The notes beneath the pieces were generated by a model, which did no database searches, was not told the DNA's origin, and worked only from the letters and a program-made list of their open reading frames with translations. Below, piece by piece: positions 77 through 23,331 of a stretch of DNA of 35,748 nucleotides. Position 1 is the stretch's first letter, and each line of letters begins with the position of its first letter. Made by a program: the position numbers and the translations under genes. Origin of the DNA: Deltaproteobacteria bacterium (lineage in GTDB: Bacteria > UBA10199 > SBBF01); NCBI GenBank assembly GCA_016183175.1, contig JACPFC010000088.1, positions 1-35,748 of the forward strand. The letters are read 5' to 3'.

Positions 77-2782
77 ATGATGAAAAATATCTTCCCGTTT
101 GGGGTGGCCCTGTTTTTGGCAGTTGGTCTTTTGCAGGCCTGCCTCGAATCGGCGGAGGATGAAGAGGCTGTCGACGAGGGGACCTTTTCCGAAGAAACCA
201 TCACTCTCGCTGTTACGGTGGCCGAACCGGTGTCCGCCAATCTTTCGGTCCCTGCCCTGACGATGGGAAAAAGAGGTCTCGCCTTAAAATCGCCCGCCAT
301 GGCCACAGAGGCCGCCGAGGCAGGTGACGTGATTCTCAAGACAGCTGATGGTCTTCTCCCCACCATTTATGGTTGCACCATCGACGAAACCGGCACCTGC
401 ACAATAGAAGTCCCGGTATCCTTGGCAGAAGAAGGAGGAGTTCTGGTAGCCGATACCGGCACCACGATCCAACACGCAATGATAGCCATGACACCGGAAG
501 AAACAGAGGCCCTTCAGGCATCGGGAGAACCACAGGCCACATCGATCAATCCGGTGACCACTGTGACAATGGCAACCGTGCAAGCCCTCCTTGAGGACAA
601 TCCGGACACGGACAGACCATCCATTATCGAGGCCATGAATGCCCTGTACGCCGAGGCGGCCACAACGACTGATGACGACGAGGATACCGATACCGTCTCC
701 GACTCCGCCAGAAGCCTCGTCACCGCCATGCAAGATATCATCCTCGATGCGCCGGAGGCAACACGACCGGTTATTTTGATGGAAAGAGCCTTTGCCGATC
801 AAAGCATAGAAGGCATCGAGTCGCTCGTAGCGGACAGTTCAACCCTTGCCGATTCTGTCGTGAACACACAGGAGACGGCGGGGGTCATTGCCGACGCCTA
901 CTCTAATCCAGATGATCCGGACGGTCCTGTGTGGACCGAGGCTGTAACCAACGCGGCCGCCGAGACAGGGCTCGACACCGCCGACATCGCCAAGATGATT
1001 GTCGCCACAGTGGGGGTATCGACCCCGGAAGAAGTGGACCAGACTGGAAACGACCCTTTCAGCATTCAAGAGCTCCAAAATATGGCCCTTGCCGTAACCT
1101 CCGTGACCGACCTTGTCGAAAAAGGGGCCACCGATCGGAAAGTACCGGGGGCCATTGCCGAAATGATGCGATTGGGGAATTTCGCCGGCACCGACTCGAT
1201 GGTCATCAATCAGGCGATGGGATTGCTTGACGCGACGTTTCCGACGGATTTCAGTTCCTACAACGCAAAAACCGCGGCCCGGGCCGCCCTTTTGTTCAAT
1301 GCGGAATATGCCAGCGAGGGGGGCTTTCTTTCTCCGTCGGAGCTCGCCTCCGTCCTTGCCCCGGCCTTAAAGGACAACTCGGTACAGTTTTCGATATCGA
1401 CCGGCGGCACAAAGGCCTTCAGCACTTTTATGGCGAATCTTGTCACAGACGGTTTGGCTTTTGACGCCTCGGCCCGTAAAGTCGATATCTTTAACGGCCC
1501 CGGGGAATCATGCACTACGGATAGCGACTGCGCAGGTTCACTCTGTGTGAGTAGCGTATGCACCGCCGATTCGACCACCATCGGCGGATCGTGCGATACC
1601 GACTCCGATTGCACCAGCGGCGAGGTCTGCGTCGGCCGTCACAGGAACCGATTCTGCATGGCGGCCAATGGCGCCCCGGCGGGTGTGACTGTTTTCGGTT
1701 CCGGGGACGCAACAACGCCCGTATTGAGAAGCGAGGTAACCATCGCCTCCGGGGAGGCCGGTTCCGATTGCCCCTGTAGTAGCGGTTTTACCTGTACCAG
1801 TTCCACCGCCAGCGCCGGCGTCTGCCGTCCTTCAACCCTGACCGGCTATAGAGCACCGGGAATGACCTGCACAAGCGCCGACCAGTGCATCAGCGGAACC
1901 TGCAGTACGGGGCGTTGCGCCGCTACGACATCCTTTATGGCCTCTCTGGGAACTTTGAAGGTGATCGGCGATCCCTGCACGTCCCCCATGGATTGCCAGA
2001 GCATGTGGTGTAATGCCGGGATCTGCGATTCACCCCCCACTTTTATCCAGAACCTTTTTACCGGGGCCTCTCTGGCCGGAGCCGGGGTCTCTTGCACCTC
2101 CAACAACCAGTGCAAGTCCTTTTTCTGCAATGCCGGAGTCTGCGGCGCTTACACCGGATCGGGCTACACGACTGTCGCGGAGACAAAAACCTCGGGGCAA
2201 ACCTGCGCCTTCACGGGGGAATGTGTCAGCCCCCTGCAGTGCGTCTCGGGAACCTGCGCGGGCATTACGTGGGCGATCCCCTGCAATGCGACAAGCCAGT
2301 GCCCGGCGGACAAATATTGCAAGGAATTCAGTTGCGTTGCCAGATCATCCGAAGGGGGAAGCTGTACGGGGACAACGACAAGCACCATCGGAGAAGCCTG
2401 CGTGAACGGGATCGGGCTTGCATGTCTTGCGTCCAACAGTACCTGTCAATACAGAACCCTGCGCAACAACACCTGGACCAAATACACTGGGCCCGACACC
2501 CCAAAGACAAGCCCAGGCGGCTCCTATTGCCTCGCAACGGCGGACAACGCCTATACGTTCACCTCGGGGGGACCCGGCCTGACTGCTTACGGCGCCGGAG
2601 GCACGGGAAATCTGACGGTCACCCTGACACCAGGTGGAAACTGTACCGGCGTGTTGAATGGACAGGCCGGGAGCGGCCAATGTCCCGGCACCTCCGCAGG
2701 TCCGACGGGAACAGTCACCGGAAGCAAGATCGTGCTTTCCTTTCCCGGCCTTGGAAATTGTCAGCTTGTCTTGAAGAATTAA
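77..2782 (+). CDS. Cys-rich repeat lipoprotein, surface-exposed (901 aa)
   Basis: A predicted exported lipoprotein of unknown function. A hydrophobic signal segment (residues 5-20) ends in a lipobox LLQAC, with Cys22 as the lipidation site. Residues about 23-475 are rich in Ala, Thr, Asp and Glu and contain no motif I recognise. From about residue 476 to 800 there are at least seven short modules of the form C-x5-C-x4/5-C-x4-C (for example CTTDSDCAGSLC, CTSADQCISGTC, CTSNNQCKSFFC). These resemble the Dickkopf/EGF-like Cys-rich repeats common in myxobacterial surface proteins. The last 100 residues are Gly/Thr-rich and probably beta-structured, with a few more Cys. ATG 77 is followed by a second ATG at 80, and either could be the start. 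The stop overlaps that of the convergent yifB. Function is unknown; adhesion or a structural role at the cell surface is a guess. Confidence 0.85.
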   Translation: MMKNIFPFGVALFLAVGLLQACLESAEDEEAVDEGTFSEETITLAVTVAEPVSANLSVPALTMGKRGLALKSPAMATEAAEAGDVILKTADGLLPTIYGCTIDETGTCTIEVPVSLAEEGGVLVADTGTTIQHAMIAMTPEETEALQASGEPQATSINPVTTVTMATVQALLEDNPDTDRPSIIEAMNALYAEAATTTDDDEDTDTVSDSARSLVTAMQDIILDAPEATRPVILMERAFADQSIEGIESLVADSSTLADSVVNTQETAGVIADAYSNPDDPDGPVWTEAVTNAAAETGLDTADIAKMIVATVGVSTPEEVDQTGNDPFSIQELQNMALAVTSVTDLVEKGATDRKVPGAIAEMMRLGNFAGTDSMVINQAMGLLDATFPTDFSSYNAKTAARAALLFNAEYASEGGFLSPSELASVLAPALKDNSVQFSISTGGTKAFSTFMANLVTDGLAFDASARKVDIFNGPGESCTTDSDCAGSLCVSSVCTADSTTIGGSCDTDSDCTSGEVCVGRHRNRFCMAANGAPAGVTVFGSGDATTPVLRSEVTIASGEAGSDCPCSSGFTCTSSTASAGVCRPSTLTGYRAPGMTCTSADQCISGTCSTGRCAATTSFMASLGTLKVIGDPCTSPMDCQSMWCNAGICDSPPTFIQNLFTGASLAGAGVSCTSNNQCKSFFCNAGVCGAYTGSGYTTVAETKTSGQTCAFTGECVSPLQCVSGTCAGITWAIPCNATSQCPADKYCKEFSCVARSSEGGSCTGTTTSTIGEACVNGIGLACLASNSTCQYRTLRNNTWTKYTGPDTPKTSPGGSYCLATADNAYTFTSGGPGLTAYGAGGTGNLTVTLTPGGNCTGVLNGQAGSGQCPGTSAGPTGTVTGSKIVLSFPGLGNCQLVLKN

Positions 2783-4314
2783 ACCAGATTTCGGTCGAGG
2801 CTCCGGTACTGGACCGCTTCCAGGAGGTGGCGGGTTTCAATGGATTCAGACTCCTCCATGTCCGCCAGCGTCCGGGAGACTTTCAGAATACGATCGAAGG
2901 CCCGCGCCGAGAGGTGAAATTTTTCCATAATCCCCTTGAGCAACTGCTTTCCCTCCGCGCCAAGCCCGCAGTATTTGCGCATCATCCGGGGGGTCATCTG
3001 CGAGTTGAGCCGGACCCCCTCTTTTTTAAACCGCTCGCACTGGATGGCCCTCGTCTTGATCACCCGCTTTCGAATCGCCTCCGATGACTCCCGCGCCTCG
3101 CGGGTGGAGGTCATCTCATCGAAGGGAACCGGCGGCACCTCGATCTGCAGATCGATCCGGTCCAAAAGGGGGCCCGACAATTTGGTCCGGTATTTCTGCG
3201 TCAGATGCGGCGTGCAGACGCAGGCCTTACGCGGATGGCCGTAAAACCCGCAGGGGCAGGGGTTCATCGCCGCCACCAGCATGAAATCGGCCGGATAGGT
3301 GAGGCTCATCGAGGCGCGGGTGATGGTCACCTCTCCCGACTCCAGAGGCTGACGCAGGAGTTCCAACACATTTTTTTTGAATTCCGGCATTTCATCCAGA
3401 AACAAAACCCCGTTGTTCGCCAGCGACACCTCGCCGGGGCGGGGGATGGTCCCGCCGCCGATCAATCCGGCATCGGAGACGCTGTGATGCGGCGCCCGGA
3501 AGGGGCGTTCGGTCAAAAGCTGGTTTTGGTGACGCAGAAGATTCATCACGCTGTAGATCTGGCTTGTCTCCAGCGATTCCTGAAAGGTCAGCGATGGAAG
3601 AATGGTGGGGAGGCGCGAGGCAAGCATCGTCTTTCCCGCCCCCGGCGGGCCGACAAAAAGGATGTTGTGCCCCGCCGAGGCCGCCACCTCCAGCGCCCGC
3701 TTGGCCTGGTACTGGCCGCTGATCTCGTCGAAATCGACACGGGCATTTGCGCCGGACCCGTTCCCGCCGAAGGGACGGTTTTCAACGGGATCGAGCGGAA
3801 GACGCCCCTCCACAAATTCCACCACCTCCGAGAGGTGTTTCATACTGAAGACCGGAAGCTCTTCCACCATTGCCGCTTCCCCGGCATTGACCTCCGGGAG
3901 GATGATTCCGGCATACTTTTTTCTCGCCGCCAGCATGGCAATCGGCAAAACGCCGCGAATGGGGCGGAGATCGCCGTTCAGCGAAAGTTCTCCGACGTAA
4001 AGATACGACTGCGCCTTTTCGCTCTGCACCACGCCGGAGGCGTTTAAAAGACCGAGGGCTATCGGCAGATCGAAGGCCGTCCCCTCTTTTTTGATGTCCG
4101 CCGGCGCGAGATTAATGGTGACCTTCCGCTGGGCAAAATCGTAGCCGCTGTTCTTGATGGCCGAAACCACCCGCTCGCGGCTTTCCTTCACCGCGCTTTC
4201 CGGCAATCCGACGGTGTGCCACTGGGGCAAAGATTGGAGGGAGATATCCACCTCCACATCCAGCGGATAGGCGTTGATACCAAGCAGACCAGCCGATTTA
4301 ATGGAGGAGATCAT
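2779..4314 (-). CDS. comM: YifB/ComM family Mg-chelatase-like AAA+ ATPase
   Basis: A 511-residue protein of the usual length for the YifB/ComM family. In naturally transformable bacteria ComM is a hexameric helicase that promotes branch migration during integration of incoming DNA. The N-terminal Lon-protease-like domain (about 1-165) is followed by a Mg-chelatase-type AAA+ domain with Walker A GPPGAGKT near residues 220-228. Other family signatures are FRAPHHSVSDAGLIGGG, the Walker B LFLDEMPEF and the Cys-rich stretch PCPCGFYGHPRKACVC, followed by a C-terminal helical domain. The ATG at 4314 has no Shine-Dalgarno sequence. The bases just upstream form the 3' arm of a long repeated hairpin (4319-4421). 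The stop overlaps that of the Cys-rich lipoprotein gene by four bases. Confidence 0.95.
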   Translation of the reverse strand: MISSIKSAGLLGINAYPLDVEVDISLQSLPQWHTVGLPESAVKESRERVVSAIKNSGYDFAQRKVTINLAPADIKKEGTAFDLPIALGLLNASGVVQSEKAQSYLYVGELSLNGDLRPIRGVLPIAMLAARKKYAGIILPEVNAGEAAMVEELPVFSMKHLSEVVEFVEGRLPLDPVENRPFGGNGSGANARVDFDEISGQYQAKRALEVAASAGHNILFVGPPGAGKTMLASRLPTILPSLTFQESLETSQIYSVMNLLRHQNQLLTERPFRAPHHSVSDAGLIGGGTIPRPGEVSLANNGVLFLDEMPEFKKNVLELLRQPLESGEVTITRASMSLTYPADFMLVAAMNPCPCGFYGHPRKACVCTPHLTQKYRTKLSGPLLDRIDLQIEVPPVPFDEMTSTREARESSEAIRKRVIKTRAIQCERFKKEGVRLNSQMTPRMMRKYCGLGAEGKQLLKGIMEKFHLSARAFDRILKVSRTLADMEESESIETRHLLEAVQYRSLDRNLV

Positions 4315-4318
4315 ATGA

Positions 4319-4421
4319 TTTGGGGCCCGTTCGGCCCGGTCGTTGCTACTCGCATTTATATGATATTACGGGCCTCACATGGCCCCAAACCCCGCGCTCA
4401 CCACGGGCCAAGCCCGATGGT
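4319..4421 (-). ncRNA. Structured repeat element, copy A, abutting the comM start
   Basis: Read on the minus strand this is homologous to 22374-22465. The first hairpin (4421-4400) is ACCA-T-CGGGC / TTG / GCCCG-TGGT, with a bulged T. Next comes a conserved spacer, GAGCGCGGGG. The outer stem is TTTGGGGCC (4389-4381) paired with GGCCCCAAA (4327-4319). Nested in it is an inner stem GGCCCG (4374-4369) / CGGGCC (4338-4333) with an AT-rich 30-nt loop. The outer stem ends four bases before the comM ATG. It could be a cis-acting leader RNA or a dispersed palindromic repeat. Confidence 0.55.
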
Positions 4422-4592
4422 TCGCTTTGTGAAGCTTCTGGGCGGTTCGATCCAATGGGTGATTTCTTCTTCGGCAGAGACATGATCGCCAAAACAGATC
4501 CGGAGCGGATCGAGGCAAAGGTCGATCCCTTCAAATTGGCGCCGATAAATTTCTTTCCCGGTTTCCAGGATGTTTCCGACAAGGACGAACAT
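4398..4592 (-). CDS. Possible small protein or gene remnant upstream of comM (64 aa)
   Basis: An ATG-started frame of 64 codons. Its codon use (ATC, CTC, GAA, GCC) and protein-like composition (GNILETGKEIYRRQFEG..., ending KRTIGLGPW) look more like coding than its neighbours do. No family is recognised and there is no convincing ribosome binding site. Its stop TGA lies inside the first hairpin of the repeat element, at the same position as the stop of a 11-codon frame in the second copy (22362-22397). It may be a leader ORF, a decayed gene end or chance. Confidence 0.25.
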   Translation of the reverse strand: MFVLVGNILETGKEIYRRQFEGIDLCLDPLRICFGDHVSAEEEITHWIEPPRSFTKRTIGLGPW

Positions 4593-17823: not shown

Positions 17824-17850
17824 AGAACAAAAGACTTTTCAACATTAAAT

Positions 17851-17876
17851 CGGGGGCTTTGCCGCTGGCGCCCCCG
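17851..17876 (-). terminator. Possible terminator downstream of the dnaJ-like gene
   Basis: On the minus strand CGGGGGC (17876-17870) pairs with GCCCCCG (17857-17851) over a 12-base loop and is followed by ATTTAATGTTG, a weak T-rich tail. It falls between the dnaJ-like gene and the next lipoprotein gene. Confidence 0.4.
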
Positions 17877-17917
17877 TACCCCCCTGTTCGCTCGCGCGGA
17901 ATAAATCCGTCGCTCGC

Positions 17918-18685
17918 TCACTCATTCACTCCTCGCCATCCAAATAACCGCCGCCACCAAGAGGGGCCTGCCTCTTTTTTCAGTTTCAGGCGCACAAGGA
18001 TATGAAGTTTTTTTCCCGTCGAAAGATCGGTTGAGTCGAGCGTGTAGGCAACCCCCGGAGAGAGCCCGGCCGGGATTTTAACCTCCTGCCTTTTCACTAC
18101 TTCCACCCTCCCAAAGCCTCCGCAATGGATGCAGGGATGTTTTACCTTTCTCCCCCGCCCCTCACAGCGGGGACAGACCTTCCATTGAATTTCATTTCCA
18201 TAGGTTGTTTTGATCTGCCCGCTCCCAAAACAGTAGGTGCAGATGACGGCGTGGGAATTGCCCGCCGAGCCCCCTCCCTTGCAGGAACGGCACTTTTCGG
18301 CGCCGACAAGCCGCGCCCGTTTTTTGGCGCCATGGGCCAGTTCCACCTCCGTCAACTCTATTTCCTGCGGCCTCTGGAGGCCAAGCACGCGGTCTTCACG
18401 GGTGAAGCCGAAGATGTCGTCGAAGATATCCTCGAGGTCTTTGACCGCCGGCGTTTTTGTGACCACCGGCGGGACCGCCTCCCCCTTTTTGGCCCATTTT
18501 TGAAAATTGTGGATGAGATGGTTGTAGGCCTCGGTGCATTCACGAAAGGACTCCGCGGCGGAGGCGTTTTCGGGGTTGCGGTCGGGGTGATGTTTAAGCG
18601 CCAAGGCGTGGTAGGCCCTTTTGACCTCCGGCGGCTGGGGCGGGTCTTGTAAACCCAGAATCTTGAGGGCCTGATGATAGTTCAA
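17918..18685 (-). CDS. Short DnaJ-like protein with J-domain and zinc finger
   Basis: 255 residues. The J-domain (about 1-70) carries the HPD triad in HHPDRNPENASA, which stimulates an Hsp70 ATPase. A DIFDDIFGF segment follows at about 87-95. Next come four CxxCxGxG modules (CRSCKGGG, CTYCFGSG, CPRCEGRG, CIHCGGFG) that bind two zinc ions in DnaJ. There is no Gly/Phe-rich linker and the second C-terminal substrate-binding domain is missing, as the protein ends about 50-60 residues after the zinc finger. It is therefore about 120 residues shorter than a standard DnaJ. It overlaps grpE by four bases. No dnaK or hrcA lies nearby. It could be a specialised co-chaperone rather than the main DnaJ. 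Confidence 0.88.
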   Translation of the reverse strand: MNYHQALKILGLQDPPQPPEVKRAYHALALKHHPDRNPENASAAESFRECTEAYNHLIHNFQKWAKKGEAVPPVVTKTPAVKDLEDIFDDIFGFTREDRVLGLQRPQEIELTEVELAHGAKKRARLVGAEKCRSCKGGGSAGNSHAVICTYCFGSGQIKTTYGNEIQWKVCPRCEGRGRKVKHPCIHCGGFGRVEVVKRQEVKIPAGLSPGVAYTLDSTDLSTGKKLHILVRLKLKKEAGPSWWRRLFGWRGVNE

Positions 18686-22272: not shown

Positions 22273-22313
22273 TTTAGGGTTTAGGGTTTAGGGTAAAAAC
22301 TGTAGTTACCCTA
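22273..22313 (+). repeat. (TTTAGGG)x3 and adjoining hairpin
   Basis: Three exact TTTAGGG units (22273-22293) run into TAGGGTAA...TTACCCTA, an 8-bp hairpin (22289-22296 with 22306-22313). The unit is that of plant telomeres but is clearly internal here. A degenerate relative lies at 4631-4661. Confidence 0.7.
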
Positions 22314-22361
22314 GACCCCATCAGTTTCTCCTTGTCAAAGAAAAACGCGTGTACTAGCTAG

Positions 22362-22397
22362 ATGAAAAAGCGAACAATCCGGCTTTGCCGGTTGTGA
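22362..22397 (+). CDS. Possible leader peptide of the parA element (11 codons)
   Basis: ATG 22362 to TGA 22395-22397 encodes MKKRTIRLCRL. Most of the frame lies in the first hairpin of the structured element. The homologous position upstream of comM also ends a frame in KRTI... and TGA. The changes between copies preserve base pairing more than peptide sequence, so coding is doubtful. Confidence 0.2.
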   Translation: MKKRTIRLCRL

Positions 22398-22465
22398 GCG
22401 CGGGGTTTGGGGCCATCGAAGGCCCGACAAACATAAAAATCAAGAAGGGCCTTCGGGGCCCCAAG
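22374..22465 (+). ncRNA. Structured repeat element, copy B, abutting the parA start
   Basis: The first hairpin is ACAA-T-CCGGC / TTT / GCCGG-TTGT (22374-22395), with a bulged T. A conserved spacer follows. The outer stem is TTTGGGGCC (22406-22414) with GGCCCCAAG (22457-22465). The inner stem is CGAAGGCCC (22417-22425) with GGGCCTTCG (22447-22455) around a 21-nt A-rich loop. The 23 bases 22394-22416 are identical to copy A at comM, and the first hairpins differ by compensatory changes. There is no T-run after it. Confidence 0.6.
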
Positions 22466-22470
22466 TGCAA

Positions 22471-23331
22471 ATGATTACGGATAGAATCAAAGAGTTCATT
22501 GGAGTCGAAACCGCCAAAAATCTGCAGTCGGGAGGCCGGTCGGCCAAAACCATTGCCGTCTGCTCCCAAAAGGGGGGAGTGGGAAAAACCACCACCGCGG
22601 TCAATCTGGGGGCCGCCTTTTCGTATTTTAGCGAGAAGAAAGTCCTGATTGTCGACCTCGATCCGCAGGGGCATGTGGAAAAATCGCTCGGTTCAATTAT
22701 CCCCGACGGCCTCGACTACACGCCGGTTTCGGCGACGCTCACCTCCAAAAAAGGGAACCTCCTCAATTCGGTGATCAAAACCAAACTCGATTTTCTGGAC
22801 ATCACCCCCGGCGACAAGGCGCTGGGAGAGGCCGACAGCGCGCTGGCGGGAAAGATAGGCAGGGAGCTGATTCTCGCCCAAGCCCTCAAAACGGCCAAGA
22901 CGCACTACGATTACATTCTCCTCGACTGCCCCCCCAACCTCGGCAACCTGACCATCAACGCCCTCTGCGCCGCCGACTACGCGGTGGTGCCTTGCGAAAT
23001 GTCGGTTCTGGCTTTCGAGGGGGTCACCGATCTGTTGACGACGCTCGAGACGGTCAATGAACGCCTCAACAAATCGCTCAAAATCCTGGGCGTTGTTTTC
23101 ACCCGCGTGGACGGCAGAAACCTCACGATGAATGCGCTTGTGGAGGAGAATCTGAAAAATTTCTTCAACGGCAACATCTTCAAGACCCGCATCTCGGTGA
23201 ACACCGACCTTAACAAGGCCCAGCTCGAAGGGCACAGCATTTTCCATTTTGCCCCTTCCTCCACCGGCGCCGAAAATTACAGGGCGCTGGCGGACGAGAT
23301 TGCAAAGAAGGTGCGTAAGCTGGATTCTTAA
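22471..23331 (+). CDS. parA: ParA/Soj-family partition ATPase
   Basis: About 286 residues. A 26-residue N-terminal part precedes the deviant Walker A CSQKGGVGKTTTAVN, followed by VDLDPQGHVEKSLG, DYILLDCPPNLGNLTINAL and AVVPCEMSVLAFEGV. ParA ATPases use ATP to position chromosomes or other cargo. No parB follows, which is unusual for a chromosomal segregation locus, so it may serve another cargo. ATG 22471 is taken as the start; GTG 22465 is in frame and overlaps the 3' arm of the structured element. There is no Shine-Dalgarno sequence. It is convergent with hisS. Confidence 0.92.
   Translation: MITDRIKEFIGVETAKNLQSGGRSAKTIAVCSQKGGVGKTTTAVNLGAAFSYFSEKKVLIVDLDPQGHVEKSLGSIIPDGLDYTPVSATLTSKKGNLLNSVIKTKLDFLDITPGDKALGEADSALAGKIGRELILAQALKTAKTHYDYILLDCPPNLGNLTINALCAADYAVVPCEMSVLAFEGVTDLLTTLETVNERLNKSLKILGVVFTRVDGRNLTMNALVEENLKNFFNGNIFKTRISVNTDLNKAQLEGHSIFHFAPSSTGAENYRALADEIAKKVRKLDS

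Follow-up and report, generated by a model that had tools for sequence, protein, structure and literature searches.

A dispersed two-hairpin element at a fixed distance before start codons in an uncultured bacterial phylum

The window analysed here, a stretch of 35,748 nucleotides of DNA from a Deltaproteobacteria bacterium, carries similar structured sequences close before parA and comM, and the question it raises is what kind of element this is. The initial annotation framed the matter as a choice between a regulatory RNA motif and a dispersed palindromic repeat. Both elements are present where it had placed them, in the leader of parA on the forward strand and of comM on the reverse strand, although each extends further than was marked. 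A covariance model (R1, below) sets the limits at 22368..22464 (+; 91.9 bits, E 4e-17) for the parA copy and at 4320..4427 (−; 104.7 bits, E 9.5e-20) for the comM copy, both belonging to what we term type A. They share an identical block of 23 bases, GTGAGCGCGGGGTTTGGGGCCAT, as had been described, and both fold far better than shuffled sequences, with z values of −4.8 (parA) and −3.7 (comM). They are no isolated pair but two among about 60 family members in the genome of the window, G000 (2.35 Mb in 137 contigs).

The relation to the two start codons is close. The start of parA had been placed at GTG 22465, but the conserved start is ATG 22471 (MITDRIKEF, as in orthologs, which begin MITDK or MITEK). 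This opens a gene for a ParA-type ATPase (22471..23331, +; Pfam AAA_31 and CbiA). The GTG is part of the 6-nt tail GTGCAA (22465..22470, +) between element and ATG, where the usual tail is RTMWW. At comM (2779..4314, −; Mg-chelatase ChlI family, Pfam Mg_chelatase, ChlI and Mg_chelatase_C), whose orthologs in G001 and G005 are 70% identical, the ATG lies 5 nt from the element, after the tail ATCAT (4315..4319, −). Before the parA copy the sequence TTGTCA...TACTAG (22332-22357, 14-nt spacer) is only suggestive of a promoter; a similar pair is also found in G001 and G002. We note that a telomere-like unit, TTTAGGG, occurs three times in head-to-tail order at about 22273-22295, between a divergent epimerase-like gene and the parA promoter region.

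The parA copy consists of two hairpins joined by a G-rich linker. Hairpin 1 (22370..22399, +), defined by covariation and folding, has the bulged U, the loop and the two double changes relative to comM that had been claimed for it. It extends below ACAA/TTGT through a tandem G.A/A.G to GC/GC; above the bulged U are CCGGC/GCCGG and a UUU loop. The linker, GCGGGGT (22400..22406, +), is nearly invariant in an alignment (A2) of 29 G000 copies that lack large internal inserts, from which start codons were left out. Hairpin 2 (22407..22464, +), also defined by covariation and folding, has the base TTGGGGCC/GGCCCCAA, a bulged A, a U.G wobble and the upper stem CGAAGGCCC/GGGCCTTCG. In type A as a whole, hairpin 1 comprises GC, the tandem G.A/A.G, four pairs, the bulged U, five pairs and a three-base loop; GCGGGG(T) connects it to hairpin 2, which is built on TTTGGGGCC/GGCCCCAAA with the bulged A and U.G wobble and often has a second tandem G.A in its upper stem. 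Enclosed in this upper stem is a further, small hairpin that carries a GNRNA loop (GCGAGTAGC) and is absent from the parA copy. Other small palindromes are nested at fixed places inside some copies, leaving the spacing to the ATG undisturbed; these are CCTGCCCGCCGGATTGGCAGGCGGG in G000 and TTCACCCCGTGGGATATGCATG... and CAGCACTCAAA...TTTGAGTGCTGG in G001 (loci L018, L021, L025, L029, L045 and L071, L074, L079-L088).

With the parA leader as query, 40 places were found in G000. The covariance model R1, built from alignment A2, gave 64 matches there at E ≤ 0.1 and 59 at 1e-3. It also found 47 in G001 and 16 in G002, which are other genera of the same family, and one in G005 of the same order, with none in four further genomes of that order. 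A second model (R2), made from 91 copies, matched 21 of 46 genomes of the phylum at E ≤ 0.01. Subtype B shares hairpin 1 and the linker with type A but has GGGGGGAA...TTCCCCCC as hairpin 2. Its model (R3, with a structure from RNAalifold on 14 sequences) matched 22 of the 46 genomes; G022, for example, has 42 copies, and G025 and G032 have 19 apiece. In these counts each species is represented by a single genome, in many cases a metagenome bin, and the models had a short calibration. R3 recovers type A copies not used in its building at about E 1e-6, so A and B look related. No family in Rfam 15 scored above its gathering threshold; the window gave only two tRNAs, and eight element loci gave nothing at E up to 1. 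The element had no phage or plasmid match, and a ParA search in viral contigs returned nothing. Relatives outside the phylum were considered and set aside: the core 19-mer occurs exactly in two known relatives and six single contigs of other organisms, and the best R1 score there was 19.5 bits (E 0.035), which we treat as chance.

A probable shorter relative was seen by eye at 17845..17927 (−; approximate limits), with hairpin 1 GCGAGCG/CGCGAGC, linker GGGGGGTAC and hairpin 2 GGGGGC/GCCCCC, followed by TTTAATG; it is unmatched by R1. It precedes a 632-aa ORF with TPR and periplasmic-binding domains, called from GTG 17823; the ATG immediately downstream of this relative is in another frame. Short copies of this kind also occur before tRNA-Cys and elsewhere in G000.

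The initial annotation took the compensatory changes between two copies as a sign of selection on structure, and the larger family bears this out. Double changes are found in 16 pairs among the 29 copies of A2. In a second alignment (A3) of 91 copies from G000, G001, G002, G005 and other families, fitted to the model and thus favouring the structure, 36 of 37 pairs have compensatory changes, a number that none of 500 shuffles reaches. Double-change cells in A3 number 544, against a mean of 152 on shuffling and 57-92 in slid controls. The margin is very wide even for an alignment fitted in this way. Covariation is significant, decisively so, and the structure is under compensatory selection. 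Leaving aside one pair that is U.G in 83 of the 91 copies, there are 45 G-U pairs but only 19 A-C mismatches, which argues that the folded molecule is RNA of the coding strand. The element folds on the sense strand.

The placement of the copies is just as decisive. The start codon was excluded from the model, and an ATG occurs exactly 5 or 6 nt after the model end in 47 of 57 full-length copies in G000, 26 of 41 in G001 and 10 of 14 in G002. For G000 this has p~6e-61, calculated with a chance of 2/64 for each copy and on an assumption of independence that does not hold for related copies. The strong bias to sites just 5′ of start codons that the annotation looked for is therefore present; the outcome that it had named as adverse, copies mainly inside or downstream of genes, was checked and is not what is found. 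Covariation and a consistent leader position on the sense strand, as expected for a cis-acting structured RNA, are both observed. The frames downstream are genuine genes, several with domains starting at the first residues. They encode ribosomal protein L3, DnaK, HPr, HPr kinase, RuvC, the acetolactate synthase small subunit, NrdR, a GlmS-type amidotransferase, a CDP-alcohol phosphatidyltransferase, MraZ, citrate synthase, a Mur ligase, ParA, ComM and others (judged from surrounding stretches of a few kilobases and putative ORF starts). The stop codon of the upstream gene is no more than 10 nt from the start of the copy in 21/46 cases in G000, 15/34 in G001 and 5/10 in G002. About half of the copies are therefore intercistronic.

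No common pathway or functional theme was found among these genes. This bears on the possibility of a classical trans-controlled regulon or riboswitch-like leader, in which a protein or ligand would bind conserved unpaired features and control a set of genes. Such features exist, i.e. the bulged U, a pyrimidine-rich loop, the GCGGGG linker, the GNRNA pentaloop and the tandem G.A. Given targets with no common pathway, few of them shared as orthologs, and a central hairpin that is missing in the parA copy of the window, we consider such control very improbable.

The annotation had also drawn attention to the lack of a Shine-Dalgarno (SD) sequence at parA and comM. This is not peculiar to them, since SD-like sequences are rare at other G000 genes (19%, against 7% in a control stretch). 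Type B copies of family f7 have an ATG 4-6 nt downstream in 15 of 19 cases. In family f17 many copies have the tail ..GAATAGGAG(G) and then ATG, i.e. the element ends at the SD sequence. SD-like sequences before other genes reach 36% in f17 against 11% in the control, compared with 7-22% against 7-14% in f1 or f7, where start calls are rough and numbers small throughout. The element abuts the ATG in SD-poor families and the SD sequence in f17, so that in each family its end borders the initiation region, whichever form that region takes there. Retention of an SD sequence in front of the element was considered as a general rule and rejected on reading the flanks, where only some copies have one.

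The constant spacing is what an SD helix typically shows. Placed 4-6 nt upstream of the AUG, the base of hairpin 2 could replace the SD/anti-SD helix on the platform of the 30S subunit and so recruit ribosomes, in the manner of an IRES, where SD sequences are rarely used. The position of the element directly at the AUG in SD-poor families would suit this, as would two anomalous starts in G000. At nadD (L033) the element sits at the N-terminal codons of the orthologs, the usual ATG is gone and an AUC lies 6 nt after the element; at ftsL (L044) an AUA occupies the start position directly after it. These could be near-cognate starts, or either could result from sequencing error or decay, and they are two cases in a metagenome bin. 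Moreover an SD sequence is kept between element and AUG in f17, and tRNA genes carry the element too. We therefore regard direct ribosome recruitment as rather improbable. A further candidate non-AUG start (G000:C28:3697 and G002:C140:2277) was rejected, as the element there abuts the stop codon of a convergent frame.

Sense copies lie directly before tRNA genes at a distance of 6-8 nt, including in G000-G002, and subtype B copies too are found ahead of tRNA 5′ ends. A minority of copies are antisense and abut tRNA 3′ ends, in genomes of f17, in G037 of f18 and once in G001; these have an ATG at the junction. A promoter within the element was considered and rejected: by eye, the tail reads TATAAT in some copies and TCTAAT or TCAAAT in many, lying 0-1 nt from tRNA starts. 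An intrinsic terminator was likewise rejected, since no U-tract follows hairpin 2 in the copies read. At one tRNA-Met (L161:2062-2346) elements flank the gene on both sides with their right ends toward it, one of them in tandem duplicate. At L159:1446-1520 what follows the element resembles the 3′ portion of a tRNA-Thr gene, and the complete gene lies about 190 nt further on; this may be a scar of integration.

Copies are present at sites that are empty in relatives. Before rplC, G000 has TAA-AGGGAT-[element]-ATG where G001 has TAA-TTAATT-ATG. At comM the G001 sequence aligns up to the ATG and has no element, and the four other relatives with comM show none. Relatives likewise lack the element at parA, but in G001 the divergent neighbour gene has a copy in the same intergenic region. 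The empty sites indicate that the element is mobile, and since most orthologs are without it, no gene needs it. Some placements look retained or recurrent: five genes have the element in both G000 and G001, where 0.9 would be expected (p about 0.002, assuming 2000 genes). Individual genes with the element in different families are nrdR (G000, G001 and G037), gatC (G001 and G025), that of an S66 peptidase (G000 and G020) and ilvN (G000-G002, with a reversed copy upstream in G013).

It is quite possible, though on balance doubtful, that this is a selfish, non-autonomous element of MITE- or REP-like kind, whose copying machinery sets its right end ...WWAT against gene termini, whose structure serves mobility and whose insertions are merely tolerated. 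The element is short, multi-copy and non-autonomous, with occupied and empty sites (rplC, comM and parA), and copy number ranges from 0 to ~60 among genomes of one order. Subfamilies have one and the same nested palindrome at one place, and a tandem pair lies beside a tRNA gene. Its best evidence is that antisense copies abut tRNA 3′ ends and that the targets have no theme in common. By contrast, random insertion does not give a fixed spacing of 4-6 nt from starts in one orientation, in three genera and in subtype B, and known small repeats avoid such sites (PMC3049150). The two ends are different hairpins, no target-site duplication was seen by eye in the flanks examined, and no transposase was found among the downstream proteins scanned. 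A search for RAYT (Y1_Tnp) genes gave only partial domains in frames of 70-74 aa in G000 and G001, and none in G002. Mobilisation of the RAYT/REP kind is therefore unsupported in these three genomes.

The account that we favour, and hold tentatively, is of a mobile two-hairpin RNA acting in cis on the sense strand at the 5′ boundary of genes. We infer that the element is co-transcribed with the gene and acts by insulation, stabilisation or 5′-end definition, and that a protein or RNase may read it. It would make up the final ~105 nt of a leader or of the spacer between two cistrons, ending exactly where the gene begins. The double hairpin would seal off the RNA upstream and expose only the AUG, the SD sequence plus AUG in the family that uses it, or the 5′ end of a tRNA. 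The RNA downstream would thereby be insulated, with its 5′ side probably stabilised or defined. We prefer this 5′-boundary reading because it accounts at once for mRNA starts, for starts with an SD sequence and for tRNA 5′ ends. Counting against a leader role, antisense copies at tRNA 3′ ends or at the stop codon of a convergent gene cannot be leaders, most orthologs are without the element, and the targets have no theme. A boundary element and a selfish repeat can both be true at once. The alternatives of regulatory motif and dispersed repeat were thus drawn too sharply, since the element is both a dispersed mobile repeat and a sense-strand leader. A bolder proposal, which we think unlikely, is an RNA module that spreads itself throughout the phylum by settling at gene 5′ ends, where it takes over as start signal or 5′ boundary; an RNA/cDNA intermediate that becomes joined to the 5′ ends of RNAs might be involved. 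Such an intermediate would explain why mRNAs are hit at the AUG or SD sequence and tRNAs at their mature 5′ ends, and RNA boundaries would then define where this mobile element inserts.

Several known systems resemble the element in part. REP sequences lie mostly 3′ of genes; REP/BIME elements with RAYT transposases are likewise extragenic hairpins with mismatches or bulges, whereas the element-rich family here has no intact RAYT. Hairpins that act as 5′ stabilisers and intercistronic stem-loops, e.g. the ompA leader, are stable structures that lie at a 5′ boundary and could shield the RNA beyond it; they are single-locus features, unlike this homologous family dispersed across a phylum. The intergenic IRES of dicistroviruses is also a compact, intercistronic fold that ends directly at the start codon and tolerates non-AUG starts, but it has no homology to the element, in which no pseudoknot was identified and initiation is putative. 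Pneumococcal BOX, RUP and SPRITE are small interspersed repeats with strong secondary structure, present in dozens of copies beside genes without a theme, probably non-autonomous and mobile (PMC3049150). These are over-represented between convergent genes (PMC3049150), while the element sits upstream in a single orientation and keeps a fixed distance of 4-6 nt to the start codon. Correia/NEMIS, ERIC and other bacterial MITEs resemble it in size (about 100-150 bp), in inserting near genes and in being able to fold in mRNA after co-transcription. They differ in their terminal inverted repeats and, often, a duplicated target (PMC2229807); the two ends of the element are unlike each other, and by eye no duplication was apparent in the flanks read. 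Repeats that are small, structured and mobile are a known kind, and the new aspect is the placement rule, which both subtypes follow in several families of a single uncultured phylum. We know of no precedent for a homologous two-hairpin RNA directly before the starts of dozens of unrelated housekeeping genes and some tRNAs. The element makes it possible to test how SD-poor bacteria mark the 5′ edges of genes within operons, and whether a mobile element can supply the mark.
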